A stretch of DNA of 64,000 nucleotides from Opitutales bacterium (GTDB lineage: Bacteria; Verrucomicrobiota; Verrucomicrobiia; Opitutales; UBA2995). Under the pieces are notes generated by a model. That model worked only from the letters and a program-made list of their open reading frames with translations, was not told the DNA's origin and did no database searches. Shown piece by piece: positions 1 to 58,575 of this stretch. How positions within the stretch are numbered: position 1 is the stretch's first letter; each line of letters opens with the position of its first letter. The position numbers and the translations under genes were made by a program. The stretch lies in assembly GCA_022824405.1 (NCBI GenBank), contig JAJDZZ010000039.1, forward strand, positions 1 to 64,000, read 5' to 3'.

Positions 1-86
1 CATGCAATAGACTTCTAAATGGAAAAAATAATAACCCTAATCCCTTGACCCAAATCGGCAAAAATCACATTAAAACCAGACCCTGA

Positions 87-124
87 GGTGGTACACTTTG
101 AACCGCTTTTTGGTGGTACACTTT
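87..124. repeat. Short direct repeat, possible insertion-sequence end remnant
   Basis: The 13-base word GGTGGTACACTTT occurs at 87-99 and again at 112-124, a 25-base period. It lies just upstream of a HigA fragment that begins without its N-terminus. A related GGTGGTAC word occurs near 6416, beside other gene fragments. Repeated short words at a truncation point resemble the terminal repeats of some insertion sequences (IS21-like ends are one possibility), but no transposase is present here and the family cannot be named from this alone. Confidence 0.35.
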
Positions 125-134
125 AAAGTGCTGT

Positions 135-338
135 TTGACACATGTTCCGGCTACGCGCATCTATGCCATCATAAAGGAAAGCCGGAGCATCACGGCAGAC
201 ACCGCCCTACGACTGGAACGGTATTTTGGGTTTTCGGAAGGCTACTTTCTCCGTCTGCAAGCTCAGTATGACATCCGCAAGGCCAAGGGGGAGAGCGGAC
301 ATCGCATCGCCGAGGAAGTGGTTCCTTTTGTCGAATAA
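135..338 (+). pseudogene. HigA-family antitoxin, N-terminally truncated
   Basis: This is the C-terminal two thirds of a HigA-type antitoxin, a Cro/C1-like helix-turn-helix protein that represses its own operon and neutralises the HigB RNase. The visible part covers the second half of the helix-turn-helix and the family signature ITADTALRLERYFG, followed by FLRLQAQYDIRKAK. Intact HigA proteins are about 90-110 residues and start with an HPGE-like segment that is missing here. The reading frame opens only at a TTG at 135, directly after the repeated words at 87-124, so an insertion or deletion probably removed the start. No HigB toxin is seen next to it. It is probably non-functional. Confidence 0.75.
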
Positions 339-342
339 CTAA

Positions 343-966
343 TTAAAATTTGCAGTTGGCGGAACCGGGACGGGGGATCTTGCCGCCAGGATCGGAACAT
401 TTAGGATACATGAGTACTATCATGAGTGCGTCCCTAGCGTTTGGGATAATGCCTGGAACGACGAGCCTTTGGATTCCACCATGACTTTCCTAGGAGGAAG
501 ATCAGCGGATACCCTGGGCGAGCTTTTGACTGAGATCCAAGCGGATACGCTCCGCATGGAAAAGGTTAACAACACCTCGGATACACGTCAGCATTTGGAA
601 TCAATGAATTTGGTCGGTAATTATACCTTCGCTAACGACTCGGCATTGAAGGGTCTCTCGCTTGGCGCTACGTTTCGTTACCGGGGTGATCGCTTTCTCG
701 GCTTTGGTAGAAATTCGGATGGGACATTCGATGCCAACACCCAATATAAGGGCGGCAGAACGGAGATTTTCGATGGGATGGTTCGCTACCGGTTGAAGAT
801 CTTCGATAACAAGGTCGATTGGAGTCTCCAGTTGAACATCAGGAACCTGTTGGACGATACCGACTTGCTTCCGTCGTCGACCGATGGCCTCGACTTGGGC
901 AATGTCGTGCGTTGGAGATTCCAAATACCGCGGGTCTATCAGTTGACCAGCACCTTCAGGTTCTGA
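343..966 (+). pseudogene. TonB-dependent receptor, C-terminal beta-barrel fragment
   Basis: The open frame runs from just after a TAA at 340-342 to the stop at 964-966. It encodes about 207 residues that look like the last beta-strands of a TonB-dependent outer-membrane receptor: alternating aromatic and hydrophobic residues, an NIRNLLDD segment typical of late barrel strands, and a C-terminal phenylalanine that is the usual barrel-assembly signal. Only a TTG at 469 could act as a start, and plug and N-terminal barrel are absent. It therefore appears to be the tail of a receptor gene of roughly 800-1000 residues, cut off 5 bases after the HigA fragment. Probably not functional. The protein family is clear; the substrate is not. 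Confidence 0.75.
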
Positions 967-1005
967 AGTATCAGGTATTATATTCAATGTAGTGCAGGCC
1001 TGATT

Positions 1006-2298
1006 ATGAGTACAAAAACCACCCGTCGCAACTTTTTGAAAACCACTGCCGTTGCCACCATCGGCATGCCCGCCATTATACCGGCCAGTTCGCTCGGTAA
1101 AAATGGAAGCGTAGCTCCCAGCAACCGGATTGTGATGGGAGGCATCGGACTTGGACCACGAGGTCGAAAGGTCCTGGATGGTTTCTTTAAGCATCAGGAC
1201 TGTCAATTCGTCGCCATTGCCGATCCTCAGAAAGAGCGCCGCGAAATTATCAAGCGCAAGACAGACCGCCATTACGAAAACAACGATTGCGTTACTTACG
1301 ACGACATGGCCGGAGTCCTGGAACGCGATGACATTGACGCGGTCGTCATCGCCACGGGTGACCGCTGGCATACCACAGCATCCATTTACGCCGCACGTGC
1401 GGGCAAGGATATCTATTGTGAAAAGCCTTGTGCCATGAATATCCAGGAATGCCAGGAACTGGACGACACTATTAAAAAGCACAAGCGCGTCTTCCAGGCC
1501 GGAACGCAGAGGCGAAGCGTTCCCAACTTCAAACTGGCCGTCGATCTTGCCCGGAAGGGCAAGCTGGGTCAGATCCGGGAGGTTCATGCAGGCATCCTGA
1601 AGTTGCAGGAATACCTTGAACCTTTGCCAGCTCAACCCGAGCCGGATCCGTCGGTTATCAATTGGGACAAGTGGGTTGGACCTGCTCCAATGATTCCTTT
1701 TAACGAAGACTATTGCGTACGAAGCCGGTGGCGCAACCACAAGGGGTTGTATTCGGCATGGAGACTGCCCGAGTGGGGATCCCATACCATTGACCTCTGT
1801 CAGTGGGCCGCGGATGCCGATGGAACGACACCGATCGAGTATGAAGCCGTATCGGACAGCCTTTTACACGCTACCTATGCCAATGGCATCAAACTGGTCA
1901 TGCGTCTATCCTCACGCGATGGGGTGGGTGACTGGATCGATGGACTGGGTACTTGTCCGGTGCGATTTGTGGGCGATGAAGGCTGGGTGGAAGCAGGGGA
2001 TTTCGATCGAATCGAAGCCAGCAATCCCAAACTCCTCAAAAACAAGCTTGCGGACCAGATCTACGGCACGGATCCGGTGCACCATGCCCGAAACTTTCTG
2101 GATTGTGTGAAGACCCGTGAACAACCGGTTTGCAACTCTACCGCAGTACGTTATGGACACATGGCTTGCTTCGCGGCCGCGATAAGTTGGAAGCTCGGCC
2201 GCAAAGTCACGTTCGATCCGGTGACGGAAAACTTCGTCAACGATGCCGAGGCCAATCGCATGCGCACTTACAGACGGCGCGCTCCCTACACGATTTAG
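1006..2298 (+). CDS. Tat-exported Gfo/Idh/MocA family oxidoreductase
   Basis: This is a 430-residue NAD(P)-dependent oxidoreductase of the Gfo/Idh/MocA family, which usually acts on sugars, inositols or their derivatives. Residues 5-25 form a twin-arginine signal (TRRNFLKTT followed by a hydrophobic stretch), so export in folded form with its cofactor is expected. The Rossmann glycine motif GGIGLGPRG is near residues 45-53, the family motif EKPCAMNI is near 138-145, and the segment GSHTIDLCQW near 260 carries the catalytic-type histidine. PVC bacteria have many such exported paralogues beside sulfatases. The gene stands between gene fragments but appears intact. The substrate cannot be read from the sequence. 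Confidence 0.9.
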   Translation: MSTKTTRRNFLKTTAVATIGMPAIIPASSLGKNGSVAPSNRIVMGGIGLGPRGRKVLDGFFKHQDCQFVAIADPQKERREIIKRKTDRHYENNDCVTYDDMAGVLERDDIDAVVIATGDRWHTTASIYAARAGKDIYCEKPCAMNIQECQELDDTIKKHKRVFQAGTQRRSVPNFKLAVDLARKGKLGQIREVHAGILKLQEYLEPLPAQPEPDPSVINWDKWVGPAPMIPFNEDYCVRSRWRNHKGLYSAWRLPEWGSHTIDLCQWAADADGTTPIEYEAVSDSLLHATYANGIKLVMRLSSRDGVGDWIDGLGTCPVRFVGDEGWVEAGDFDRIEASNPKLLKNKLADQIYGTDPVHHARNFLDCVKTREQPVCNSTAVRYGHMACFAAAISWKLGRKVTFDPVTENFVNDAEANRMRTYRRRAPYTI

Positions 2299-2352
2299 AA
2301 TGAACATTCTTCCCCCAGGGAGGGAAAAGAGGAATCAGGCGCCGCTTTACTG

Positions 2353-2712
2353 ATGTGCTTCACCTTGCCGTCACAACCAAAAAAACGATTGTTGATAGGC
2401 AGAATTTTGACTCATTCCTCATTTCCTTCGCGATTCTGTCTGGTTCTGTGCGCGGGCTTCTTTTCCTTATTCGCTGCCGCCGCTGAAACCGTTTCGTTCA
2501 GCCTGCCTGATGGCTATGAGCTGGAACTCTACGATCTTGAGAACGATCCCTGGGAATTTCACAACCTGGCTGGAAAGGCCGAGTACGCTGAAATCGAGCA
2601 GCGAATGAAGACCGCTCTAAAAACCTGGCGACACGAAACCGACGACCCAGCCCTGGACCCGGCTTGGCACGATCAGGTCATGCAAGAGGTCACAAGCCGC
2701 GCAAGAAGATGA
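2353..2712 (+). pseudogene. Sulfatase remnant: signal peptide joined to C-terminus, middle missing
   Basis: The 119-residue product starts with a hydrophobic signal sequence ending near AAAAE. It then passes directly to a typical sulfatase C-terminus: LELYDLENDPWEFHNLA followed by a helix ending in WRHETDDPALDP. The same tail is recognisable in the intact sulfatase at 57121-58575 (FELYDLEEDPHEFHNLA, WRHETRDPML). The whole catalytic region, including the metal site and the CxPxR formylglycine motif, about 350-400 residues, is absent, yet the frame is kept. The TGA stop overlaps the ATG of the next remnant (ATGA), which suggests that the original genes were translationally coupled. It cannot be an active sulfatase. 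Confidence 0.75.
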
Positions 2713-3284
2713 GATTTCTAATACTGGTCATCGTAGCATTTACGTCCGGCTGTTTGGTCAGTAACCCGAGTAACTACGATGTAGTTGTTTACGGCTTTTG
2801 CAAGGACGAGTGGCAGGATAATAATCACTGGCCGTGGTATCTCTACATCCGGGCGGCTCGTCGTATGCAAGGCGAATACATCCTCACCCAGGCAGATGTC
2901 ACAGAAACGACCGACAAGGAAGATGTTATCCATATTGGATCCCATTACATCGATGCCCACCACGTCACCCGATACGCGGTAGACCAGGAACACTACATCA
3001 ACGAAGGTCGAATCTGGCAGGTTGGCGTGCCCTTTGACATCCCTTACGGGGTTATCACACCGAAATCCGAGGAATGCGAAAACTTGCTCGTGCCGGTTTG
3101 CGCTTCGGCAAGCGCGGTAGCCTTTTGTACCATCCGCCTGGAACCAACCTGGATGCACCTGGGCGAGGTATCGGGAATTGCGGCCGCTATGTCTATAAGG
3201 AATAATGCCAGTGTCCGGAATATCAACGTCGCCGATCTTCAAAAACGAATCAAGGCAGTGGGAATTCCTCTCCAAGCGGAGTAG
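2709..3284 (+). pseudogene. FAD-dependent oxidoreductase (FAD_oxidored) remnant with middle missing
   Basis: The 191-residue product begins with a lipoprotein-like signal (FLILVIVAFTSGC) and then YDVVVYG, which is how FAD_oxidored proteins of PVC and Bacteroidetes begin just before their GG-x-AG FAD-binding loop. It then jumps to the C-terminal half of the same family: CKDEWQDNNHWPWYLYIRAARR, then IPYGVITPKSEECENLLVPVC and IRLEPTWMHLG. The dinucleotide-binding core, probably 250-300 residues, is missing, but the frame is open. The start at 2709 is chosen over 2664 because it overlaps the upstream stop and opens directly into the signal sequence. Without the FAD loop it should not bind FAD. 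Confidence 0.7.
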
Positions 3285-3317
3285 GGGATATGAACCGGAG
3301 ATATCCTTCGACTTGAC

Positions 3318-3345
3318 CCATTCTTCTGGTGTAGGGAGGTATGGA
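3318..3345 (-). pseudogene. Short remnant matching the 3' end of the AAA/DUF4143 ATPase gene
   Basis: These 28 bases are identical to 10549-10576, which lie inside the C-terminal coding part of the ATPase gene at 10478-11629 (minus strand, encoding SIPPYTRRM). The minus-strand reading here also gives SIPPYTRRM. Outside these bases the identity drops, so this is best seen as a scrap of a related ATPase gene. It is followed at once by the sulfatase leader copy starting at 3367. Confidence 0.55.
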
Positions 3346-3366
3346 TTGGCGAAAGCGCGTATAAGC

Positions 3367-3558
3367 ATGAACGAATCTCACAACCCCAAGCACGGCATCC
3401 ATCGCCGGAACCCGTTCAAAGGCTTCGCCCTCGCCGCGCTGGTCGCATGGGGTCTCGTTGCCATAGGCAATGTTGCTGTACAGGAGCCGAGCGCTGCAAA
3501 GCAAATGAACGTCGTATTCGTTCCGGAGGAAGACCTCGGATGGGGAGACGTGAGCTAA
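3367..3558 (+). pseudogene. Sulfatase leader remnant, copy A
   Basis: The frame encodes a 63-residue peptide: a basic start MNESH, a hydrophobic export segment (FALAALVAWGLVAIGNVAV), then MNVVFVPEEDLGWGDVS, which is the N-terminal metal-binding start of a sulfatase (normally LADDLGWGDVSYHG), and a TAA where the copy at 7784 reads TAT. The bases 3348-3492 are about 90% identical to 11779-11923, and the bases 3532-3651 are about 97% identical to 7760-7879. It is therefore a broken sulfatase 5' end that exists in several partial copies. No catalytic cysteine motif follows. Confidence 0.7.
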
Positions 3559-3651
3559 CATGGGGTGGGGAAGATTAGGTGCCGTCTAATATCCTACCTG
3601 CTAATCACAGTGACTTCGCTGGCTTTTGCCAGTCTGGGCCAAGCTGCCGAT
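3532..3651 (+). repeat. 120-bp direct repeat, copy 1 (second copy at 7760-7879)
   Basis: This block matches 7760-7879 without gaps and with about four mismatches. It spans the end of one sulfatase leader (DLGWGDVS) and the whole signal peptide of the next sulfatase (starting GKI-CRLISYLLITV). One mismatch creates the TAA stop at 3556-3558 and another changes GGG to AGG at the fifth codon of the second leader. The junction between the two leaders is the same in both copies, so it formed before the duplication. Confidence 0.85.
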
Positions 3652-3759
3652 GCACGCGCTTCCTACTCGTCCCATTCAAGCTTGGAGGATGATGTAGAGA
3701 GAATGCGAAGTAGGGTACTGCGAATGGACATTGGCATTGCTCAAATTCTCTCTGAGTAA
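3565..3759 (+). pseudogene. Sulfatase signal peptide joined to unrelated 3' sequence
   Basis: A GTG at 3565 opens a 64-residue frame whose first 28 residues are almost the same as the signal peptide of the intact sulfatase at 7793 (CRLISYLLITVTSLAFASLG, then QAAD). After the point where the repeat ends (3651) the sequence no longer resembles a sulfatase and gives a charged 36-residue tail ending in GIAQILSE that I do not recognise. It is either another deletion product with a different 3' end or a random open frame after a break. Confidence 0.6.
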
Positions 3760-3883
3760 AAGGCGAAAACACAACACTTTAACCAATCGATTTTGGCAGC
3801 ATCCAAAAGGGACTCCTCAGATTTTGTGTCACCATGGGTTTCGCTTACCTTCGAAACTGAATGAGCGCCATAGCTTCCAATCG

Positions 3884-5029
3884 CTACTCCAGATGATCAC
3901 CGATGCCGTTCCGGTTCTTGTCGGAGACTCCGGAGAGGGGGTGCTCCACGACCGCCTTCCAGGCAATTTCACGAAAGACTTTATCCATGTCGGCGTTTAG
4001 GAAACCTGGGTTCTGGTCGAATTGGATAGGTGCTGAAATGAGTTCAGGGGATTTGGCGTAGAGCGTGGCGTAGAAGACATATCCCTCCAGGCGATCGAAG
4101 CCCGGCCCCAAGTGACCGCGTTGGTCTCTCCAGATAGAATGTTCTTTTCCGCCAACTACCGTAAACAGGCCTTCAACGCCGGGGAGTTCTCCCCGGTTGA
4201 ACCGCTGGGCCGCCTCCGTCATCGCGGCGCGTGTGGGCAGGATATAGACGTCTTCGGATGTTTCGCGAATGGTGCTCACGAGATCCGCAAAGCTAGTGTC
4301 CGCGGCAGCGTTCATTTGATCCAAGACCTCATCCGTAAAGAAAGAATCTGACTCCGGGTTTCCTTTGAGATTGAAGACCATCCGGGCCTGATGGAGCGTG
4401 GGCCAGCCATCGATGACAAAATACTTCATGCCAGGATTGTATTGCTCGCAGAAATCGATCCAGCTCGTATAGAATTTCGGACGGTCTGCGGTGTAGGGGC
4501 CCCAGATCATCGCCTCCCATTCCGCGTTGGAAATAGCAGCCAGGAGCTTGGGCAGGGGCTTGCCATCAAATTCGAAGATGCCGTTTTCCTGCTCCCACTT
4601 ATAACTCACGCTGCCCGTGCGCCCGCCGCCATTGTGCAGGCAAAGCGGCTGCTCGAAACCAGCGGCACGGGTGATGGCGGGCAAGGTTCTGTAACCGGGC
4701 GCGGTAAAGCTGTGGCCCGTCCCCACGATGCGCAGGATGCCTTCAGCTTGCTCGGGAAAGGACATGGCGTCGGCCGCTTCTGCATACGTGCGCCCCGGCT
4801 CGCCGCGCTTGTAAATGGCCATGATTTCTTCGGGTGCTTTGAGACTGACCGCGTGCGATGGAAATTCATCCTTCTCCCAACCTGGATCGAATTTCGGAAT
4901 CGCTCGTGCGGCTGCGGCTTGGCGCGCATTGCGCTCGGCGTCTCTCTGGGACTGTTGCGCGATTGAGAACGGCGCGGTCGCCGCCAGGGCAAGGACCACA
5001 AAGAGAAGGGTAGGGCGATGATATTTCAT
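3884..5029 (-). CDS. Secreted SGNH-hydrolase-like protein of unknown function
   Basis: The 381-residue protein starts with a clear signal peptide (LLFVVLALAATAPFSIAQ). After a polar, alanine-rich stretch it has GTGHSFTAPG near residues 100-110, comparable to the GxSF nucleophile block of SGNH/DUF4886-like hydrolases, and later WPTLHQ near 210, which could be the DxxH-type block in altered form. Neither block is canonical, so the fold is a guess. The C-terminus ends in SGVSDKNRNGIGDHLE, a DxNxNGxGD loop typical of calcium-binding thrombospondin-3 or dockerin-like ends in secreted proteins. It stands alone, divergent from the dienelactone hydrolase gene at 5249 with 219 bases between them, in which I see no clear regulatory site. 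Confidence 0.6.
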   Translation of the reverse strand: MKYHRPTLLFVVLALAATAPFSIAQQSQRDAERNARQAAAARAIPKFDPGWEKDEFPSHAVSLKAPEEIMAIYKRGEPGRTYAEAADAMSFPEQAEGILRIVGTGHSFTAPGYRTLPAITRAAGFEQPLCLHNGGGRTGSVSYKWEQENGIFEFDGKPLPKLLAAISNAEWEAMIWGPYTADRPKFYTSWIDFCEQYNPGMKYFVIDGWPTLHQARMVFNLKGNPESDSFFTDEVLDQMNAAADTSFADLVSTIRETSEDVYILPTRAAMTEAAQRFNRGELPGVEGLFTVVGGKEHSIWRDQRGHLGPGFDRLEGYVFYATLYAKSPELISAPIQFDQNPGFLNADMDKVFREIAWKAVVEHPLSGVSDKNRNGIGDHLE

Positions 5030-5248
5030 GGGTATACGAGTCCGCTGATTGAGATTCGAGGCATTTTCAAATTAAGGTAAGTGGGCGTCAATACGCTTGC
5101 CGGGAAGAATGGCTACCCTGTTCGAACGTTTCATTTCCTGCAATCCGTTCGCTGACCGCTTCTCTAGCCTTGCCCCATTCAACAGCCTCGAATCAAATAG
5201 GACTCATACATCTTCCATCAGAATTAACCAGCCGTACTTGAGATTTCC

Positions 5249-6124
5249 ATGTGTGACGAACTTACCAATAAAGACGTAGAGCAATATCTTCGCCCCCAAG
5301 GCCTGACCCGGCGCCAATTCAACAAGACCAGTATCGGTGCGGCGCTTGCGCTGATGTTGCCAGCGGTCGCCGATGCCGCTGATTTGGTCGAGCAGGATGT
5401 CTTGGTCTCGACGCCGGACGGCGAGGCCGATTGCTATTTCGTCCATCCCAAGTCCGGCAGCCACGCGGCCGTCATGGTCTGGCCCGACATTGTCAGCATC
5501 CGCCCCGCGTTTCGCGCCATGGGAAAGCGTCTGGCAGAGTCGGGTTACTCGGTGCTGGTTCCCAATCCCTACTACCGTAGCCACCGCGGCCAGATTGTGC
5601 CGGACGGCAAGACCTTTCGTGATCCGGGCATTCGCGAGATGCTGATGCCTCACGCGCGCAAGCTCTCGCCTGAAACCTGCGTAACCGATGGCCGGGCGTT
5701 CGTCCAATGGCTCGATGCACAAGCATCGGTCGACACAGGCCGCAAAGTCGGCACCACCGGCTATTGCATGACGGGCTCGTACTGTATGCGCCTTGCGGCA
5801 GCTATGCCCGATCGTATTGGCGCAGGCTGCTCTTTCCATGGGGGTGGCTTGGCGACGGACGCCGACGACAGCCCGCACAAATTAGCTGACCAGATGAAAG
5901 CCGAGTTCCTGATCGCCATCGCCGAGAACGACGACGAGCGAAGACCCAACGAAAAAGTCCTCCTTCGCGAAGCCTTCAATGCCGCCGGTGTTAAAGCTGA
6001 AATCGAAGTCTACGAGGGCGCACTGCACGGCTGGTGCCCACCGGATTCTGCGGTCTACCACGAGGCGCAGGCCGAGCGAGCCTGGAGCCGCATGCTGAAG
6101 TTGTTCGAAAGAACATTGGCCTGA
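5249..6124 (+). CDS. Dienelactone hydrolase family protein with Tat-like signal
   Basis: This 291-residue alpha/beta hydrolase resembles carboxymethylenebutenolidase. The nucleophile elbow is TTGYCMTGSY (cysteine near residue 173), as in dienelactone hydrolases which use Cys instead of Ser. The GALHGWCPPD segment near 260 supplies the catalytic histidine. The N-terminus has TRRQFNKTSIGAALALMLP, a twin-arginine signal, unusual for an enzyme type that is mostly cytoplasmic, so an exported hydrolase for lactones or esters is likely. It has no partner genes for aromatic degradation nearby, so a chlorocatechol role is not supported. The start ATG at 5249 is the only one that includes the Tat motif at a proper distance. 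Confidence 0.85.
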   Translation: MCDELTNKDVEQYLRPQGLTRRQFNKTSIGAALALMLPAVADAADLVEQDVLVSTPDGEADCYFVHPKSGSHAAVMVWPDIVSIRPAFRAMGKRLAESGYSVLVPNPYYRSHRGQIVPDGKTFRDPGIREMLMPHARKLSPETCVTDGRAFVQWLDAQASVDTGRKVGTTGYCMTGSYCMRLAAAMPDRIGAGCSFHGGGLATDADDSPHKLADQMKAEFLIAIAENDDERRPNEKVLLREAFNAAGVKAEIEVYEGALHGWCPPDSAVYHEAQAERAWSRMLKLFERTLA

Positions 6125-6143
6125 GTATCACTCACTCGCAGGG

Positions 6144-6407
6144 TTAATTTCCGGGAATCACCTTGTCCTTTTCCTCAAGGATTTCCTTAACCCACCAAAA
6201 GAAAGTGCATGCGAAAGGCCTTGAACTGTGATTGTGATAGAACTTCACAGCCGGGAAAAATGGATCAAAAAGGGGAATTCCATCATGCGCAATGGAATAG
6301 CTGTTCAATGCATTTTTGGCTTCTTCTTTCGAAAGCAATCCAAACAGAGTAGCAAAAGCCGTAGACAATATGTGGTCTTTCCCCGATTTAAAGTAACGTG
6401 CCTGAAT
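6144..6407 (-). pseudogene. Glycoside hydrolase (six-hairpin, MGH1-like) C-terminal fragment
   Basis: The open frame between a TAA at 6408-6410 and the stop at 6144 reads as the last part of an (alpha/alpha)6 glycosidase: ARYFKSGKDHILSTAFATLFGLLS, then GIPLFDPFFPAVKFYHNHSSRPF. The order of a bulky aliphatic stretch, GIP--P-FP and YHN--S-PF matches the last barrel helices of the MGH1-like/GH63-type glycosidases, where YHN-xx-WPF is common. The rest of the gene, several hundred residues, is absent and there is no normal start codon. It is a truncated relic. The family call is moderate because only about 85 residues remain. Confidence 0.5.
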
Positions 6408-6429
6408 TTAGGGGGTGGTACATAATCCT

Positions 6430-6466
6430 GATGCGATTGGAAAGAGACCTGCGGGAAAGAATTAAA
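6430..6466 (+). repeat. 37-bp dispersed repeat, copy 1
   Basis: These bases match 11957-11993 with two mismatches in 37. In both places the word lies among gene fragments and begins with a frame reading MRLERD-RERI. Here the small frame (6431-6514) ends after 27 residues at MNQRRF. I do not recognise the peptide. It is probably the scrap of a gene that was once present at both places. Confidence 0.55.
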
Positions 6467-6637
6467 GAATGCCGCCAATTCCGACAGATAATAATGAATC
6501 AGCGTCGATTTTGAATGATTACCTATTGCGCCGAATGGAGAACCGATTTAATAACAAGTAGGAAGCGGTCAGCAACCTTGCAGAAATGAGTCCCTCTTGA
6601 ATGGTATAGGACCGATTCACCAAGCTCCTCATGACCT

Positions 6638-6943
6638 ATGAATAGAAAGCTTTTTATTTACGGCCTTACCGGTATCCTGATATCAAATACACCCTTGACT
6701 GCCGCCGACCGTGTATCCGGTAAAATGTTTGCCACCCGCTCCGAGGTGCTGGCCCAAAACGGCATGGTGGCAACCAGTCAGCCTCTGGAAACGCGACGCG
6801 CACTAACGAGAATGGGCCATCGCATCGAACTCACGGCACTTGGTATGTACGGAGGTTATCAGGCAATCTTCAGGGACCCTGATACCGGTGTTTATTTCGG
6901 AGCTTCCGAAAGCCGAAAGGATGGGCATGCGGCGGGTTTTTGA
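6638..6943 (+). pseudogene. Gamma-glutamyltransferase remnant: N- and C-termini joined, middle missing
   Basis: The 101-residue product starts with a signal peptide, then RVSGKMFATRSEVLAQNGMV with ATSQPL, which is the usual N-terminal start of gamma-glutamyltransferases (GGT). It then passes directly to LTRMGHRIE, GMYGGYQAIFRD and GASESRKDGHAAGF, the standard GGT C-terminus (consensus GASD-RKDG-A-GY). Intact GGTs have about 550-600 residues, and the autocleavage TTH/S-x site and substrate site are in the missing middle. The junction lies near the SQPL-ET-RRAL segment and keeps the frame. The peptide cannot be an active transferase. Confidence 0.8.
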
Positions 6944-7047
6944 TTTCTGTAGAATCTGATTTGCCCAAGGCTAAAAAACTAGTGTCATGTCCTGGTCCAC
7001 TTTGCCCGAACATGGGACCACTACCAGGAGTTTACTGAAAATTGTGC

Positions 7048-7379
7048 CTAATAGTTTTCAATTTTTTCCAGCAATTTCGGCACGAGATTATTGGCGAAGT
7101 CCCAAAGCGCAGCATCATCAATTATATCATATCCATGGGCCACCAGGTTCCTAAATCCTATAATTTGATATACTCTGGTATTTTCTGACCTAGATTCTCT
7201 TTATCGATTCTTTCTAGCCGAGCTAGCGCCTCTCCAATAATTTCAAATTCTCTCTCAAGGGCTAACTGCAGGATTCTGTCCTTCCAAAAGTCGGAAAAGC
7301 TCTTGCCTTCTACAAAACTAATAATCTCTTCGCAGGACAAAGTCAGATCCAAAAGCAACTTTCGGATGCTAGGCTGCAT
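7048..7379 (-). pseudogene. hepT: HepT-family toxin gene with a frameshift near 7160
   Basis: HepT (DUF86) proteins are HEPN RNases that pair with MNT-type nucleotidyltransferase antitoxins. Reading from ATG 7379, the first 73 residues match the family N-terminus (LQLALEREFEIIGEALARL, then KIPEYIKL) and stop at 7158. One base out of phase, the sequence continues as IIGFRNLVAHGYDIIDDAALW and stops at 7048, giving the normal length of about 110. The HEPN motif R-x4-H-x-Y (RNLVAHGY) lies wholly in the shifted frame. A single-base change near 7160 therefore separates the toxin from its active site. It is either a real inactivating mutation or a sequencing error. Its start overlaps the antitoxin gene by 11 bases. 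Confidence 0.8.
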
Positions 7380-7671
7380 AAACCAGCTTTTTCGTATTGT
7401 TTACCTTCTCCTGGAAAACTGAATTTCGAAAGGGCCTATTAACCAATAGATCAACAGGTCTCTCCAAAACGCTTTCCAATTCCAGTTTGAAACCCATAAA
7501 TTGATCAAAAGCGCCCTTGAATCCTTGACGATCAAATTCCACTACAAAGTCGATATCGCTGGAATCGGTCGACTTTCCTGTCACAACAGAACCAAAGGCA
7601 TACAGGCTCTTTACATTAAATTGCTTGCACACGTCTTTGACGGACTCGCTATTTGCCAATTCATCGATCAT
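7369..7671 (-). CDS. mntA: MNT-type minimal nucleotidyltransferase antitoxin
   Basis: The 100-residue protein is a minimal nucleotidyltransferase of the MntA type, which inactivates the HepT RNase by adding AMP to its active-site tyrosine. It has YAFGSVVTGKSTDSSDIDFVVEF at about residues 24-46, the GS-x10-D-x-D catalytic motif of the DNA polymerase beta superfamily. The order antitoxin then toxin, with an 11-base overlap (7369-7379), is the standard arrangement of the HepT/MNT module. Because the toxin frame is broken, this antitoxin may stand without an active partner. The ATG at 7671 begins 8 residues before the family homology, so the start is likely right. Confidence 0.85.
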   Translation of the reverse strand: MIDELANSESVKDVCKQFNVKSLYAFGSVVTGKSTDSSDIDFVVEFDRQGFKGAFDQFMGFKLELESVLERPVDLLVNRPFRNSVFQEKVNNTKKLVYAA

Positions 7672-7759
7672 GGTTGGTAATTCTCCTATGTTCTATGGTT
7701 CAGTCAATAGACGATTCCGGCCACTGGGTTTCAAAGGCGTCGCCCTCATCCTGGCGGAT

Positions 7760-7879
7760 GACCTCGGATGGGGAGACGTGAGCTATCATGGGGTGGGGAA
7801 GATTGGGTGCCGTCTAATATCCTACCTGCTAATCACAGTGACTTCGCTGGCTTTTGCCAGTCTGGGCCGAGCCGCCGAT
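7760..7879 (+). repeat. 120-bp direct repeat, copy 2 (first copy at 3532-3651)
   Basis: It matches 3532-3651 at about 97% without gaps and covers the signal peptide of the intact sulfatase that starts at 7793. Immediately upstream (7728-7750) the sequence TTCAAAGGCGTCGCCCTC matches the first part of the sulfatase leader also seen at about 11849, so a piece of about 120 bases found in copy A between the two parts is missing here. Confidence 0.85.
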
Positions 7880-9232
7880 CAACCGAATATAATTGTCCTC
7901 CTGGCGGATGACCTTGGCTACGGAGAGCTGAGCTGTCAGGGCAATCCTGAGATTCCCACGCCGCATATTGATTCTATCGCGGCCAATGGGGTGCGCTTTA
8001 CCGATGGCTACGTGACGGGTCCGAACTGCAGTCCCTCGAGGGCAGGGTTTATGTCGGGACGGATTCCAACTCGCTTTGGTTATGAGAACAACCCGATCGG
8101 TCCCAGGAATGAGGATCCGGCCATTGGCTTTCCGGCGAGTGAAGTGACGATCGCGGAGACCTTGCAGGATGAAGGCTACGTCACGGGCATCATTGGCAAA
8201 TGGCATCTGGGTGGTACAGCGGCCTACCATCCGTTTCGGCATGGCTTCGAAGAATTCTTCGGCTTTACCCATGAAGGCCATTATTTCGTGCCGCCGCCTT
8301 GGAAAGGTGTGACCACGATGCTGCGGCGCAAAACGATTCCCGGTGGAGGCGAAGGTCGCTGGATAGGAAAAAAGAAACTGATTTACCACACCTGGCCCAG
8401 CAACGAACCAGACTACGATGCCAACAACCCCATCGTACGTGGAGGACAACCCATTGAGGAACACGAGTACTTTACCGACGCCATTACCCGCGAAGCCGTC
8501 GACTTCATCGATCGTCACGACGATAAGCCCTTCTTCCTCTACGTTCCCTACAATGCCGTGCACAGTCCGCTTCAGGGAGCCGACGCCTACATGCGCAAGT
8601 TTGCTCACATCGAAGACATCCAACGACGCATCTTCGCGGCAATGTTGGCGAATATGGACGACAGCGTGGGAGACATTTTATATCAGCTGCGAAAATCGGG
8701 ATTGGAAGAAAACACGATTGTGTTCTTTCTCAGCGATAATGGCGGCCCGACCAAAGAATTGACTTCTTCCAACCTTCCTTTGCGCGCGGGAAAAGGGGCT
8801 ATGCATGAAGGTGGTTTGCGGGTGCCGTTTATGGTCCAGTGGAAAGGAACCATACCGGCAGGGAAGGTCTATGACAAGCCGGTCACCTCACTCGATATCT
8901 ACGCGACCGCAGCAGCGAATGCCAAGGCAGTTGCCCCAAAGAACATCGAAGGCGTTGATTTGGTGCCTTACTTGACTGGGATAATTTCCGGCCGGCCGCA
9001 CGAGACTTTGTTCTGGCGACAGGGCGGCAAGGCCGGCTTACGTCACGGCGATTGGAAACTGGTTCGCATGGGCGGACGCAAGAATGTCGGAAATGCCAAG
9101 TGGGAGCTGTATGATCTTTCCAATGACCTTTCGGAGGAACACAATTTGGCAAAGAAGAATCCAGAGCGTCTCGCCGAGTTGATAGCGATTTGGGAGAAGA
9201 TGAACGGCGAGATGCAGAATCCGATGTTTTGA
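7793..9232 (+). CDS. Sulfatase (formylglycine-dependent, arylsulfatase type)
   Basis: From the GTG at 7793 this is a 479-residue S1-family sulfatase that removes sulfate esters, most likely from a glycan, outside the cytoplasm. A signal peptide (residues 1-28) precedes NIIVLLADDLGYGE, which gives the first metal-binding aspartates. The maturation motif is C79-S-P-S-R, where C79 becomes formylglycine. GKWHLGG near 135 and FFLSDNGGPTKE near 310 are further active-site blocks. The frame stays open upstream to 7625, but that part is only a fragment of another sulfatase leader; the GTG start gives a perfect signal peptide. The product ends with LYDLSNDLSEEHNLA, as usual. It is the only complete sulfatase in this fragment-rich region. 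Confidence 0.9.
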   Translation: MGKIGCRLISYLLITVTSLAFASLGRAADQPNIIVLLADDLGYGELSCQGNPEIPTPHIDSIAANGVRFTDGYVTGPNCSPSRAGFMSGRIPTRFGYENNPIGPRNEDPAIGFPASEVTIAETLQDEGYVTGIIGKWHLGGTAAYHPFRHGFEEFFGFTHEGHYFVPPPWKGVTTMLRRKTIPGGGEGRWIGKKKLIYHTWPSNEPDYDANNPIVRGGQPIEEHEYFTDAITREAVDFIDRHDDKPFFLYVPYNAVHSPLQGADAYMRKFAHIEDIQRRIFAAMLANMDDSVGDILYQLRKSGLEENTIVFFLSDNGGPTKELTSSNLPLRAGKGAMHEGGLRVPFMVQWKGTIPAGKVYDKPVTSLDIYATAAANAKAVAPKNIEGVDLVPYLTGIISGRPHETLFWRQGGKAGLRHGDWKLVRMGGRKNVGNAKWELYDLSNDLSEEHNLAKKNPERLAELIAIWEKMNGEMQNPMF

Positions 9233-9263
9233 GATGAGTGGCGTGTTTTATACGATTTAATTC

Positions 9264-9653
9264 ATGAACAATCCATTAATCCATATGAAATTAAACATCG
9301 TTCTCTCCTTGATCGTGGCGAGCCTGCTGGGTGCTTGCGCGAGTCTGCAAATGCAAGTCGGCCCAGTGCTTGGTGAATGGCAGTATGTCGTCGAAAACCT
9401 TCCCCGCGGAGAACCTGAAGGAAGCTTTACCATCGTAAAGAGTGGAGATGGCTATACCGGGACGCTTCAACGAAAGGGCGACCAGGCTGTTCCTCTCGAT
9501 GAGATAATCCTCGAAAACGGCGTTCTGGAAAGCAGTAACTTTACGACGCAGGGATATTCTGTGACCATGAGCGGTACCTTTGAAGGTGATTCCTTCGAGG
9601 GAACGCTTTCTGTCAGTGGACGAACCTTTCCGATAACCGCTGCCAGGAAGTAG
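9264..9653 (+). CDS. Small predicted lipoprotein
   Basis: The product has 129 residues from the ATG at 9264, or 122 from the ATG at 9285, which gives a more compact signal (MKLNIVLSLIVASLLGAC). LLGAC is a lipobox, so the mature protein should start at that cysteine and be anchored to a membrane. The rest is a small beta-rich domain (GEWQYVVENLP, GYTGTLQRKGD, MSGTFEGDSFEGTLSVSG), which resembles the short lipoproteins described as transport-associated or peptidase-C-terminal barrels in PVC and Bacteroidetes. I do not recognise a named function. It follows the sulfatase by 31 bases and could be co-transcribed with it. Confidence 0.65.
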   Translation: MNNPLIHMKLNIVLSLIVASLLGACASLQMQVGPVLGEWQYVVENLPRGEPEGSFTIVKSGDGYTGTLQRKGDQAVPLDEIILENGVLESSNFTTQGYSVTMSGTFEGDSFEGTLSVSGRTFPITAARK

Positions 9654-9677
9654 TGGTTAATTCCTTGTAACTACTCA

Positions 9678-9813
9678 GATGCTCTTGCCCTACCGCGACG
9701 AACGGCAGAGCAGGGATGCTCTTGCCCTACCGCGATGAACGGCAGAGCAGGGATGCTCTTGCCCTACCGCGCTTGAATTTATTGGTAGGGGGACAGCGTC
9801 TTCGCAGGGCCGC
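9678..9813. repeat. REP/BIME-like cluster 1: tandem 37-bp units and an inverted copy
   Basis: A 37-base unit starts at 9678, 9715 and 9752 (third copy partial). Each full unit holds a hairpin with stem AGAGCA, loop GGGA and stem TGCTCT, followed by TGCCCTACC. At 9784-9813 a copy in the other direction starts GGTAGGGG and carries a different arm (GCG-TCTT-CGC). The same element type occurs at 37957-38028 and 49175-49297. It fills the space between the lipoprotein gene and the gene at 9816. Confidence 0.75.
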
Positions 9814-9815
9814 TT

Positions 9816-10481
9816 TTGAATCTTTATCGTTCATTAGGTAAGAACTCCCATTTTTTGAGGACTTCAGAACAGCGTTCCGAAAAAATACCCGCCGACCGTG
9901 GGTATTCAAAAGTCATCGGAACCAGTTCGGCGCAGGTACACGCCGGATACGAAACCATTTATTTATTCTATAACGAGCTTTCCCAGCCCGATTATTACTT
10001 CCAAAAAGTCTATACTCCAGTTTGCCGGGACAGCGAATGCAAGAGCGTCAGGCTCACGGTCAGGTGGGACCTGCTTGGGAAATACCAGGGATACTATCTG
10101 GATGATGGCCTGACGTTTACCAAGTTGGACCATGAACCTTTCACGGAGGAGGAATATGCCAGGTTGCACAGCATCCTTGCCTATGAGCAATCGATATTGG
10201 GCTCCTATACCAGTAAAGATATCGCGGAACTTCTTAAACAGGATTCACCTGTCGAGGCCTCAACAGAAGTGCATGCCATTTCCGGAGCAACACCGGAAGA
10301 AATCAGGTCGGAAATCATCGAGGGGGCCTTGTATACCTGTCATACCTTGTGGCACTTGTGCCGCGGTGAAACGGATGACCTGATACTCGATTACACAAAG
10401 CAATATCTCCTGAATGAGGAGTTTGTGCATCAATTGTTACTGTCAGGAAATATTGAATACATAAAATTTTGCCTCGATTAG
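9816..10481 (+). CDS. Conserved hypothetical protein, probably N-terminally truncated
   Basis: The 221-residue frame starts at a TTG right after the repeat cluster and has no signal peptide, although the rest looks like a mid-to-C-terminal part of a larger exported protein. It contains VCRDSECKSVRLTVRWDLLG, DHEPFTEEEYARLHSIL and AISGATPEEIRSEIIEGALY with TCHTLWHL. The SGAT motif is reminiscent of the site that binds FMN covalently in NqrC/RnfG-type domains, where the residue pattern is SGAT-S/T. Here the fourth residue is followed by PEE, so FMN binding is unproven. I recall similar SGAT-TLWH proteins in Bacteroidetes but know no function. Its stop overlaps the end of the convergent ATPase gene by 4 bases. 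Confidence 0.5.
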   Translation: MNLYRSLGKNSHFLRTSEQRSEKIPADRGYSKVIGTSSAQVHAGYETIYLFYNELSQPDYYFQKVYTPVCRDSECKSVRLTVRWDLLGKYQGYYLDDGLTFTKLDHEPFTEEEYARLHSILAYEQSILGSYTSKDIAELLKQDSPVEASTEVHAISGATPEEIRSEIIEGALYTCHTLWHLCRGETDDLILDYTKQYLLNEEFVHQLLLSGNIEYIKFCLD

Positions 10482-11629
10482 CGTGTCACCAACTTTGATA
10501 GAATTTCGGTTAGATTTCCCGGAGCGGTGAAAATAACCTCAAAGCGATCCATTCTTCTGGTGTAGGGAGGTATGGAAATGTTGGATACAACGATATTTGC
10601 TCCCTGCGGGTAGAGGGATCGAAACGCATTGAGATTCCGCAAATCGAATTTTGATGCATTCCATTTGCATTCTATGGCTTGGCAGGTTCCGTTTCTGCCT
10701 CGTACCACGAAATCTATTTCGCGTTTCTGCTTATCTCGCCAGTAGTGAACAGGCAGGATGTGAAATTTTGCTTCGAGTTCGTCCAGGACCAGGTTTTCCA
10801 ATAAGCTGCCGCAGTCGCTTGAGCGTAGCTCCCTCCATCCCCTGTTGTGAACGACGAAACCGGTGTCGAAAGCATAGCATTTAGGTTGCGCAAGGATCTC
10901 CCGGCGTCCACCTCCATAGAAAGGCCGAATGCGCCTGATCACATGGGTTGTTTCCAGAATTTCGAGATAACTGTTAACCGTAGGTCTTGTAAGCAGGGTT
11001 TCCTTGGAAAGAGAAGTGGTTTCGAGTAAACCTCCATTTCTGCGCATGAGCAATTCCGTCAGTCTGAGAAATTCAGATCGTTTGGATACGCGAAAGAGTT
11101 CCTGGATATCGCGGGCGAAGTAGGAATCGAGCCATTCACTGTAGAATTCCGGATCGTCCGAATCATCCAGGACGCGCTGGGGCAATCCTCCCCGGTACAA
11201 CCTGTCCTCCAAAGGGATTTTCCCAAAGCTGCTGAGCTCACTTGTCAGAACGGGGACCAAGTGTATGCTCCGCTTCCGCCCGGTCAGGGAATCCTTGAAT
11301 TTCTGCGTTGCCGCAAGCGTGGACGATCCTGTCGCAAGTACCTTCAAATGAGAAAACTCATCGGCCGCTATTTTGAGAATTGTGCTGGGGTCCGTCAGCT
11401 TGTGGACTTCATCGAGGATTACGGTGTCCTCGGTTACGTTGGCAAAGAAATATTCCGGGTCTTCGAGACTTTGTCGGTGCCTGGGCAGGTCGCAGTTGAG
11501 GTAGTGAGCACCGTCCAGGCTTTTCGCCAAGGTCGTTTTTCCGACCCGCCTTACTCCGCTCAGCCAGGCGATAGGGGCTCGTTTCCAGGCGTTTTTTAGC
11601 CGCTCTCTCCAAAATGGTCGATCAATCAC
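10478..11629 (-). CDS. AAA ATPase with DUF4143 domain
   Basis: This 383-residue protein belongs to the widespread AAA_14/DUF4143 family of predicted ATPases. The Walker A motif is SGVRRVGKTTLAK near residues 24-36, Walker B is DTVILDEVHKL near 67-77, and ATGSSTLAA near 96-104 is the sensor-1 region. The C-terminal DUF4143 part contains HYWRDKQKREIDFVV near 300, with the D-x-V pattern of a restriction-endonuclease-like fold, and an ECKW segment. Such proteins are common in accessory regions, but their role is not established. The length is normal for the family (about 380-420). A 28-base part of its 3' end also occurs at 3318-3345. Confidence 0.85.
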   Translation of the reverse strand: MIDRPFWRERLKNAWKRAPIAWLSGVRRVGKTTLAKSLDGAHYLNCDLPRHRQSLEDPEYFFANVTEDTVILDEVHKLTDPSTILKIAADEFSHLKVLATGSSTLAATQKFKDSLTGRKRSIHLVPVLTSELSSFGKIPLEDRLYRGGLPQRVLDDSDDPEFYSEWLDSYFARDIQELFRVSKRSEFLRLTELLMRRNGGLLETTSLSKETLLTRPTVNSYLEILETTHVIRRIRPFYGGGRREILAQPKCYAFDTGFVVHNRGWRELRSSDCGSLLENLVLDELEAKFHILPVHYWRDKQKREIDFVVRGRNGTCQAIECKWNASKFDLRNLNAFRSLYPQGANIVVSNISIPPYTRRMDRFEVIFTAPGNLTEILSKLVTR

Positions 11630-11799
11630 GGGAGCAGAAATTTACATATAGACGTCTAAATGTAAAATACATTTTTGGGATTATCTTCTCAATTGCGGTT
11701 TTATGCGGGAAATTTCTAGATTTCCTGACAGAATTATCCCACAAAAGAGTCACGAGGAATTCAGCGACGACACATCTATAAGCGAAAGCGCGGATAAGC

Positions 11800-11931
11800 A
11801 TGAACGAATCTCACTACCCCAAGCCCGGCATCCATCGCTGGAACCCGTTCAAAGGCGTCGCCCTCGCCGCGCTGGCCGCATGTGGTCTCGTTGCCACAGG
11901 TAACGTTGCTGCGCCGGAGCCCCAACCCTGA
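11800..11931 (+). pseudogene. Sulfatase leader remnant, copy C
   Basis: An ATG at 11800 opens a 43-residue peptide starting MNESHYPKPGIHRWNPFKG, with a hydrophobic segment (VALAALAACGLVATGNVAA) and ending EPQP at a TGA. The DNA at 11779-11923 matches 3348-3492 at about 90%, including bases upstream of the ATG. The sulfatase part that follows in copy A is missing. It is the 5' end of a lost sulfatase gene. The surrounding 370 bases between the ATPase and DUF1080 genes hold only this remnant and the 37-base repeat at 11957. Confidence 0.7.
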
Positions 11932-11956
11932 TTTTGACCCAAAGTTGTTTGACCCG

Positions 11957-11993
11957 GATGCGATTGGAAAGAGACCCGCGGGAAAGAATTAGA
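11957..11993 (+). repeat. 37-bp dispersed repeat, copy 2
   Basis: It matches 6430-6466 with two mismatches. It lies just beyond the 3' end of the DUF1080 gene (stop at 12009 on the minus strand) and just after sulfatase leader copy C, so both copies of this repeat are beside broken genes. Confidence 0.55.
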
Positions 11994-12008
11994 GAAAGAA
12001 GTGCTTTC

Positions 12009-12629
12009 TCAAAGTTTTCGGATGCGGACGTTGCGAACCCAGAATTCCTGACCGTGATCCTGAATTGCAATCCATCCCTTTTGCGCGAGTGGCTTGTCCT
12101 CGGGGCGGGCCTTCTCTAAATCCACTTGCTGAACGACCTGGTCGTTGAGCCTTGCGAGGAGCTTCGAACCTTTTAGGCGAACGAACATGGTGTTCCATTC
12201 CCCAGCTGGTTTTACGGCATTCACCTTTGGTCCTGAGGTTTTGATCACGCCCCCTACGCTATGGGGCCCCAGTTCTTCTTTACCGTAATCGTCTCTCAAT
12301 TGAATCTCAAAACCGTGCAGGGTGGCGTCCGACTGGTCCGCGATGCGGAAGTAGAATCCCGAGTTCCCACCTTCTCCGAGCTTGAAATCAAACCGGCAGA
12401 CAAAATCCTGGTATTGTTCCGGGAACCAGAGGTAAGCGCCGTAGCGTTTCCAGCCCGTCTCGCCTTCCCGTGGCTTCAGGTGGAGTACATTCCTTTTCTC
12501 CTCCATCCAGTTTCCGGTCGTCTCGAAATCAGAGAGCTTGAAAAGTTTCGTAAAGGCCTCATTCTCCTGAGCGCTCAGAGACAGGGAGAGGACCAGGGCA
12601 ATCGATAAGGTGCTTAGTAAAATCTTCAT
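12009..12629 (-). CDS. Secreted DUF1080 (3-keto-disaccharide hydrolase-like) protein
   Basis: The 206-residue product has a signal peptide (ILLSTLSIALVLSLSLSAQ) and one DUF1080 domain, a concanavalin-like beta-sandwich. Typical blocks are visible: FVCRFDFKLGEGGNSGFYFR near residues 75-95, HGFEIQLRDD near 105-114, and GWIAIQDHGQEFWVRNVRI at the end. DUF1080 proteins were first described only as unknown; one subgroup acts on 3-keto-glycosides produced by Gfo/Idh or GMC enzymes. The Tat-exported Gfo/Idh protein at 1006 would be a fitting partner, but it is 10 kb away. The gene is complete. Confidence 0.85.
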   Translation of the reverse strand: MKILLSTLSIALVLSLSLSAQENEAFTKLFKLSDFETTGNWMEEKRNVLHLKPREGETGWKRYGAYLWFPEQYQDFVCRFDFKLGEGGNSGFYFRIADQSDATLHGFEIQLRDDYGKEELGPHSVGGVIKTSGPKVNAVKPAGEWNTMFVRLKGSKLLARLNDQVVQQVDLEKARPEDKPLAQKGWIAIQDHGQEFWVRNVRIRKL

Positions 12630-12868
12630 AGCGAAATAGAATCACTCTACGTCAAGAAATGTCACGATGAATTTGTCAACAAGGGATTATATCAAGGCCT
12701 GAAAGTTACACGAACTCATGCTATTGAATCCCAAATTCGGAAATATCAAATGGTTCTTCCGCCATAAGGAGCTTTGCCCCCGGGCATCTCACCCGGATTT
12801 TGCCCGCCGTCGCCTTATTGGGCCTTGACATTTAAACCAGACCAGACCAGGTTTTATTTATCAAAGTA

Positions 12869-13093
12869 GTGAATGTCCAGGAAGCCAAAACCCATCTTTC
12901 GCGGTTGATTGACCAAGCTGCCAAAGGACAGGAGGTCATTTTGGGCAAACATGGCAAACCCATGGCAAAAATAACAGCTTATGCTCCACGCAAAGAGCAG
13001 CGCCCACTGGGAGGTTACGAGGGTTGTATCAGGGTAGGGGAAGACTTTGACGAGGAAGACCCCCAAATAAACCGGATTTTCTCGGGCGCATGA
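12869..13093 (+). CDS. Phd/YefM-family antitoxin
   Basis: This 74-residue protein is an antitoxin of the Phd/YefM family: VQEAKTHLSRLIDQAAKGQEVILGKHGKPMAKI is the usual N-terminal DNA-binding domain, and the acidic C-terminus (DFDEEDPQINRIFSGA) is the toxin-binding tail. The start is a GTG at 12869, since no ATG is available at the homologous position. Its stop overlaps the start of the PIN toxin gene (ATGA at 13090-13093), so the two should be translated together. Such antitoxins bind operator DNA in front of their own operon, but I see no clear palindrome in the 240 bases upstream. Confidence 0.85.
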   Translation: MNVQEAKTHLSRLIDQAAKGQEVILGKHGKPMAKITAYAPRKEQRPLGGYEGCIRVGEDFDEEDPQINRIFSGA

Positions 13094-13467
13094 ATTACCT
13101 GCTGGATACCCACGTATTTCTCTGGGCGCTGGGTAATCCGAAAGCCCTGAGCCTTGAAGCGAGGCAACTGATTCAGGATCCAAGTTATTCCGTGTTTGTC
13201 AGCGCGGTCAGCAGCGTGGAAATTGCCATCAAACAGGCTTTGGGTAAACTGGAGGCGCCGGCGGGCCTGGAGAAAGAAATTGAACAACGCGGGTTTCAGG
13301 AACTACCGCTAACTTACGGGCACGGATCGAGGCTGGTGGAGTTGCCGTCATATCACCAGGATCCCTTTGACCGAATGCTTCTGGCCCAGGCCCTGCATGA
13401 AGGCCTCATTTTAATAACCCGCGACAAAAAAATGAAGCGATACCCTGTGAAATGCGTTATGACTTAA
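13090..13467 (+). CDS. PIN-domain toxin (VapC type)
   Basis: The 125-residue protein is a PIN-domain endoribonuclease. The acidic residues expected for Mg2+ binding are visible: D6 in LLDTHVFLWA, E44 in SSVEIAIKQ, D92 in DPFDRMLLAQA, and D110 in ITRDKKM. Together with the Phd-like protein upstream, it forms a type II toxin-antitoxin module. Pairing of PIN toxins with Phd-type antitoxins is common in cyanobacteria and PVC bacteria. The gene is complete and of normal length. Confidence 0.9.
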   Translation: MNYLLDTHVFLWALGNPKALSLEARQLIQDPSYSVFVSAVSSVEIAIKQALGKLEAPAGLEKEIEQRGFQELPLTYGHGSRLVELPSYHQDPFDRMLLAQALHEGLILITRDKKMKRYPVKCVMT

Positions 13468-13560
13468 CCCGCAGCAGCGCCGGCATGTCCGGGCGAAACC
13501 AGTGTCCTGTCGTGTCAGAATTGAAACGGCTCTCCGCTTAACCTTATCGTCTGCTTTTCC

Positions 13561-57120: not shown

Positions 57121-58575
57121 TCATCCCCGATCGAAAAAATAATCCGGGTAGGTCAGAGTGAGTTTGGCTTTGTCGGGTTGGCCCTCAACGAAACAGGCAT
57201 CCACTTCTTCCTTTAAACGAAGTAGATTGATGTATTTCAGCATGGGGTCCCTCGTCTCATGCCTCCAGGTATCCAGTCGTTTCTCCAGGTCGGACCGGAT
57301 TTCCCTATAGTCGGGGTCTTCTGCCAGGTTGTGAAATTCGTGCGGATCTTCTTCGAGGTCGTAGAGCTCGAATTTTGGGGGTCGCTCCATATTGCGGTAG
57401 GCAGAGCGGATGGGGTCCGGCGCCTCATCGATCGTTGCTATCAAATCCTCAAAGAAACGATTTTTGGTAAATTGGTTGCCGGGATTTACCCTGCCTGGCA
57501 TCAGGTTCAAAATGAGCTTGTAACGGTCATTCCGGATAGTGCGTTGAGGGTAGAAATTCTGGGCCGAATGAAGGTGAAACTCCGTAAACAGGTGGGTGCG
57601 CCATTCCGTTTTCTCGCCCTTCATCAAGGGCATGAGAGACTTGCCCGGCAGGTTTGGAATGAGGGCTGCGCCAGTGGCTTCCAATAACGTGGGCGCCAAA
57701 TCGAGGAGCGAAACCAGTTCAGTGGATACGAGTTGGGTTTTTGCCTGGCCGGGCCACCGGATTATGAAGGGAATCCTCGTGCCGCCTTCGTAGGAAGTGC
57801 GCTTTCCTCGAAGCATGTCGGCTCCATGATCCGCGAAATAAGCTACGAAAGTATCCCTGGCTTTTCCGCTTTCTTCGAGGACTTGAAGTAAATCTCCGAT
57901 GAGCGTATCCAACCGCATCATACAATTGTAGTGATCGGCCGTTTGTTGCCGGAGCTGTGGATTATCTATGCCAAAATAGTCCAGTGGCTCAACTTCGTTC
58001 CCGGTCAGAGGCTTTTGCGGCAGGCCATCCACTTGAGGAATAAAGGGCCTATGAGCATCGGGGTAGTTGATGCTGAGAAAGAAGGGCGCATCGCCGGCAT
58101 TGATGAAAGCCTTCGCTTCGCGAGCGTAGCCTGGCAGATCCTTGCGGCTGAAATTGGATTTGCCAATGGCTTCAAAATCGAAGGGAAAGGCCGATTCGGG
58201 GTTGATGTGAAGTTTACCTATGATTCCCGTGCGGTAACCGGCCTCTTTCAGGCTGCGCACGATATTCGGGGTGTTTTCGTCATACATCCGAAATTTCCAG
58301 GTCGCTAAACCGATCTGGCCGTTTTGGTGTGGGAACAGGCCGGTCAGGAAGGAGGCCCTCGACTGACTGCATCCGGCTTGGGCTACATAGGCGTTCTTGA
58401 AGAGAACCCCTTCCGACGCCAATTTATCGAGATTGGGGGTTTTTACATAGGGCTCTCCATAACAACCAAGTTCCTGCCCGTTATCCTCCGAAACTATCAG
58501 GAGAACGTTGGTTGCCGATACGGCCGCGAACGGAAAAAGCGAAAGGAACAGGATAAAAGCGAGCCATGTTTTCAT
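57121..58575 (-). CDS. Sulfatase (sulfamidase-like) with unusual CSQSR motif
   Basis: The 484-residue exported protein has NVLLIVSEDNGQELGCYG, C69-S-Q-S-R73 in QAGCSQSRASFLTG, GIIGKLHINPESAFPFDF near residue 120, and YFADHGADMLRGKRTSYEGGTRIPFIIRWPG near 245-275. Glutamine stands where nearly all sulfatases have proline or alanine in the C-x-P/A-x-R maturation motif. SEDNG instead of xDDxG and FADHGADMLRGK agree with the heparan N-sulfatase-like group, where such variants may be normal. The C-terminus LYDLEEDPHEFHNLAEDP is regular. It overlaps the next gene upstream (58572) by 4 bases. Confidence 0.88.
   Translation of the reverse strand: MKTWLAFILFLSLFPFAAVSATNVLLIVSEDNGQELGCYGEPYVKTPNLDKLASEGVLFKNAYVAQAGCSQSRASFLTGLFPHQNGQIGLATWKFRMYDENTPNIVRSLKEAGYRTGIIGKLHINPESAFPFDFEAIGKSNFSRKDLPGYAREAKAFINAGDAPFFLSINYPDAHRPFIPQVDGLPQKPLTGNEVEPLDYFGIDNPQLRQQTADHYNCMMRLDTLIGDLLQVLEESGKARDTFVAYFADHGADMLRGKRTSYEGGTRIPFIIRWPGQAKTQLVSTELVSLLDLAPTLLEATGAALIPNLPGKSLMPLMKGEKTEWRTHLFTEFHLHSAQNFYPQRTIRNDRYKLILNLMPGRVNPGNQFTKNRFFEDLIATIDEAPDPIRSAYRNMERPPKFELYDLEEDPHEFHNLAEDPDYREIRSDLEKRLDTWRHETRDPMLKYINLLRLKEEVDACFVEGQPDKAKLTLTYPDYFFDRG

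Follow-up and report, generated by a model that had tools for sequence, protein, structure and literature searches.

In-frame gene remnants of a deletion and a probable gene fusion in an Opitutales genome

Introduction

Deletions at direct repeats of 4-20 bp are well described in Haloquadratum walsbyi, where they range from tens of base pairs to kilobases, leave a single copy of the repeat, and have produced many pseudogenes, some of them in frame (PMC3119063). The locus described here resembles that system in one deletion, and probably in a second, between very short repeats, with one copy left and the frame kept. It differs in that the comparison there was made within one species, between two strains whose synteny is conserved, whereas here it is made with other species and one junction is placed on inferred parents; besides, the former organism is an archaeon and the latter an Opitutales bacterium.

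Fusion pseudogenes generated by deletions between genes are part of general bacterial genome erosion. One of the two open reading frames (ORFs) of this study is probably like them, in that it begins as one gene and ends as another that lay downstream, the difference being that its parents are known from relatives alone.

The two ORFs, at 2353-2712 and 2709-3284, are very probably pseudogene remnants. Each would have arisen by a deletion of its own, at short repeats present by chance, within a gene cluster in decay; the case is one of ordinary genome erosion, and not of new genes. It illustrates the shedding of surplus degradation genes by sulfatase-rich Opitutales genomes, and it carries a warning: an ORF that combines a signal peptide with the C-terminus of a family may be the scar of a deletion or may stem from two fused genes.

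Genome and Sequences Compared

The window, meaning the whole stretch of DNA analysed, is 64 kb long and opens a contig of 67.5 kb from a draft genome of 3.39 Mb in 92 contigs. About 120 sulfatase genes were counted in this genome, nearly all with full-length reading frames. The comparison genomes included one of the same genus (G001) and three from members of the family (G002, which is a single contig, G003, and G004). The contig starts with bases (1-141) that include an exact 140-bp match to the end of contig C79, and the gene of a HigA-like antitoxin, longer in G001:C218, is cut at 141. The upstream neighbour of the two ORFs is an intact Gfo/Idh/MocA oxidoreductase gene (1006..2298, + strand; Pfam GFO_IDH_MocA), with 82-86% DNA identity to the copies in G002 and G006.

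The FAD Oxidoreductase Remnant

The ORF at 2709-3284 encodes 191 aa from the ATG at 2709 and is open throughout. Pfam FAD_oxidored (PF12831) matches it at profile positions 274-415 of 416 only, versus 1-415 for the intact relative. When aligned with the intact 521-aa G001 gene, a single block of 969 bp (323 codons) is absent from the ORF, in frame, and no other gap of this size class occurs. The block is bordered in G001 by TACGG at both ends, and a single copy is left in the window at 2790..2794 (+). Upstream of this junction, the 5′ end of the gene (2709..2789, +; signal peptide to NYDVVV) aligns with the start of the intact G001 gene, and downstream, the 3′ end (2795..3284, +) has 89-90% amino acid identity to G001. 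An intact relative and a repeat flanking the gap, the two marks of a microhomology deletion, are both provided by G001: the FAD oxidoreductase gene underwent a clean in-frame deletion, for which size, frame, and repeat are all shown. Regarding the product, its likeness to the PF12831 family is confined to this C-terminal third; the difference lies in the FAD-binding Rossmann part, which is deleted, the N-terminal motif being absent from the ORF.

In nearly all the other loci examined, whether in the same genus or as far away as distant phyla, FAD homologues were full-length or near-full-length; another fragment in G003 was the main exception. The same short form was absent from the 53 relatives and from the collection of 84,980 species that were searched. 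A real short family, an outcome considered in an earlier sequence-only reading of the locus, is contradicted by these results.

That reading also mentioned an assembly fault, and an artefact of assembly or amplification would mean that the contig is misjoined and that full-length genes exist. The draft state of the genome, with its 92 contigs, leaves room for this explanation; however, it is very unlikely on several grounds. The contig ends share exactly 140-141 bp, which indicates that a de Bruijn assembler was run with a large k, close to 141; to pass a junction, a program of this type depends on reads that span it, and a misjoin across 5 bp is not expected. Moreover, neighbouring relics have diverged by 9%, so the patch in which the ORFs lie is old and real, and the rest of the genome yielded no other FAD gene copy of similar identity.

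As for the age of the deletion, the FAD piece has acquired seven synonymous and one nonsynonymous clearly polarised changes since its split from G001, with 13 and five, respectively, on the G001 branch. If the piece had drifted along the whole branch, the probability of at most one nonsynonymous change in eight would be about 0.00016; this 7:1 count implies that the piece was constrained for most of the branch, which points to a recent deletion or to a piece that is still working, two possibilities that dN/dS cannot separate. A recent deletion is the simpler explanation because the FAD-binding part is gone, and the deletion is probably recent.

The same count bears on the possibility that selection retains the in-frame remnants as short proteins, whether secreted or lipid-anchored. 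Retention of the frame and of the signal peptides in both ORFs, the few nonsynonymous changes in the FAD piece, and the fact that a third nearby remnant (6638-6943) is in frame too would all fit with it. Nonetheless, selection for short secreted peptides, as contemplated in the sequence-only reading, is highly improbable: the short forms occur in no second genome examined, the catalytic and FAD-binding regions are gone, a recent deletion would also give a low nonsynonymous count, and the comparable events in relatives broke the frame.

The Probably Fused Open Reading Frame

The ORF at 2353-2712 encodes 119 aa and, like its neighbour, is open throughout. Its sulfatase homology begins at about aa 56-58, the sulfatase part comprising aa ~58-119, and the models of sulfatase ends match aa 56-95 only. 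At the DNA level, the similarity to sulfatases starts exactly at 2524, and the 3′ end of the sulfatase gene (2524..2712, +), in frame with the fused start, matches Pfam SGSH_C at positions 115-152 of 154 (E 2.5e-6), with 57% amino acid identity to a sulfatase of the same genome at 57121-58575. Of the features of a functional sulfatase (PF00884, C/S-x-P-x-R), no PF00884 match was found in the ORF, which retains only the C-terminal end recognised by SGSH_C.

Domain models found nothing on the start of the ORF, which was therefore compared directly. Residues 30-59 have 63% identity to a G004:C4 protein that is itself above the TIGR02604 cut-off, and the stretch 'AETVSF-----SLPDGYELEL' resembles 'AETVSFPPHNFTLPDGYTLEL' of the PVC-type heme-binding protein that two family members encode. 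Aligned with the start of the PVC-type heme-binding protein, aa ~40-57 gave a BLOSUM score of 56; the best sulfatase start reached 29, and 200 shuffles no more than 40. By its similarity to the G004:C4 protein, the segment 2353..2523 (+), with the signal peptide and ETVSF..LPDGYELEL, is the probable 5′ end of a gene for a PVC-type heme-binding CxxCH protein; the N-terminal domain model of TIGR02604 is not reported for the ORF, in which only the first residues match the relatives.

Homologues of the heme-binding gene sit in clusters related to this region of the window in G002, where the gene adjoins a twin-arginine-signal gene and a Gfo/Idh/MocA gene, and in G004, where it lies next to two genes that match window positions 3361-3442 at their starts. 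The order in the window is the Gfo/Idh/MocA gene, the heme-protein start, and then, at 3361, the relic of a gene start as in the G004 cluster.

The two parts meet at GAACT (2524..2528, +), a 5-bp match common to the inferred parents: the sulfatase match begins at 2524 and the DNA match of the heme protein, barely above shuffles (28 vs 26), ends at this motif; the heme-protein start also lacks 15 bp. The relatives used were 57-63% identical, no close parent of either part having been found. The fusion across two genes is inferred from these similarities, since none of the genomes compared was seen to carry the two parents in succession, and GAACT matches the inferred parents only. A single sulfatase gene without its middle was considered and rejected, given that the start is unlike sulfatase starts and scores higher as a heme-binding start; most likely, two genes were fused in this ORF.

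These results leave the sequence-only reading partly intact. The two ORFs, their frames, and their overlap are in the sequence as described; a signal peptide followed by the C-terminus of the same family holds for the FAD ORF, but not for the sulfatase ORF, and of the two internal deletions claimed for neighbouring genes, one is internal (FAD) while the other is a probable fusion. Alignment to full-length homologues, the check that it proposed, did place the junctions, at TACGG versus G001 and at GAACT versus the inferred parents; the search for uninterrupted genes in related genomes returned the full FAD gene, in G001 among others, but no cluster with both parents of the fused ORF.

The course of events may be pictured as follows. 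A PVC-type heme-binding gene would have had its first ~57 codons joined, presumably in a single step, to the last ~63 of a downstream sulfatase gene across GAACT, with removal of everything between the heme-binding start and the sulfatase end; in the other event, the 969 bp were lost from inside the FAD oxidoreductase gene between the two TACGG copies. Both would have stayed in frame largely by chance, so that ORFs with signal peptides remain; neither product keeps an active site, and both have presumably lost their function. Replication slippage or microhomology-mediated joining is the likely process, and the 5-bp match at both junctions supports the deletion mechanism suggested in the sequence-only reading.

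Frame, Chance, and the ATGA Overlap

A chance of one in nine had been attached to two neighbouring deletions that both keep the frame. The bare arithmetic is right, but these two were picked post hoc: with the junctions of the relatives included, three of five are in frame (P about 0.21), which is near chance. The remnants of the window alone give three out of three (1/27), which leaves some room for a bias, and in-frame remnants are easier to notice than out-of-frame ones. As for the repeats, a single random junction would show a match of at least 5 bp with a probability of about 0.005.

The third remnant of the window belongs to a gamma-glutamyltransferase (6638..6943, +) and consists of start and C-terminus; alignment to an intact 591-aa gene (G003:C39:16199-17974) revealed a 1416-bp in-frame deletion at 6786/6787, with no clear short repeat when judged against this roughly 80%-identical relative. 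In the relatives, a dienelactone hydrolase gene of G002 (G002:C1:3439880-3440260), related to window positions 5249-6124, has 686 bp missing, out of frame, and a C-terminal FAD fragment of G003 (G003:C65, 8263-8583 of the locus) runs, out of frame, into the end of another gene, one with a relative at window positions 3884-5029; G003 also carries an intact FAD gene, on C55.

A bias towards in-frame remnants, if true, would suggest selection on them, and the present counts do not show it. There is little to commend the idea that in-frame start-plus-end remnants are over-represented in the lineage, with translated secreted mini-proteins or uninterrupted translation being favoured and decay proceeding via in-frame deletions. 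A dedicated frame-preserving deletion or shuffling system, for instance a recombinase, might explain several start-plus-end remnants within one 12-kb stretch; it is scarcely credible, however, because the junction sequences differ (GAACT, TACGG, and none clear), none of the ORFs close to the junctions was recognised as a recombinase, the frame is lost in the relatives' cases, and the sulfatase genes elsewhere in the genome, about 120, are nearly all intact.

The ATGA stop/start overlap between the two ORFs (2709..2712, +) is real and had been likened to that of functional operon genes; yet the FAD genes of the relatives themselves start with ATGAGA or ATGAAA, with no sulfatase before them. Any upstream frame that enters an ATGA start in the right phase stops there, so the overlap is weak evidence of a working operon. 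An ancestral sulfatase-FAD pair was also considered and rejected, since in the relatives checked the FAD gene is not behind a sulfatase gene of the same direction.

Surrounding Relics

The first 13.5 kb of the window are a patch of gene relics: ORFs of at least 150 aa cover 0.63 of positions 1-13500, versus 0.92 of the rest. Downstream of the FAD remnant, a short piece (3315..3345, +) repeats the 3′ end of a DUF4143 ATPase gene, with 97% identity to 10546-10576 and a match to G001:C149 8940-8978; the DUF4143 ATPase gene itself lies at 10478-11629, and another of its 3′-end fragments, beside other relics, is on contig C49 near 92.5 kb. It is followed by the gene-start relic 3349..3488 (+; MNESHNPKHGIHRR...), with 90.7% identity to a second copy at 11782-11921 and 87%, over 62 bp, to the start of a G004:C4 gene that lies downstream of the heme-binding one.

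A sulfatase-start relic at 3510..3651 (+) is duplicated at 7738-7879 (91.5% identity); in it, an inner sulfatase motif (DLGWGDVS) is joined to the start region of another sulfatase, and one of the two copies has a stop where the other reads through. The gene at 3884-5029 is without about 36 codons, an EF-hand-like stretch, at 4950-4960, which are present in G001:C76 and G004:C145. Finally, 9696-9956 holds a repeat of ~230-260 bp that recurs with 92-95% identity in contigs C2, C63, C35, C67, C84, and C33, and as a shorter core in relatives.
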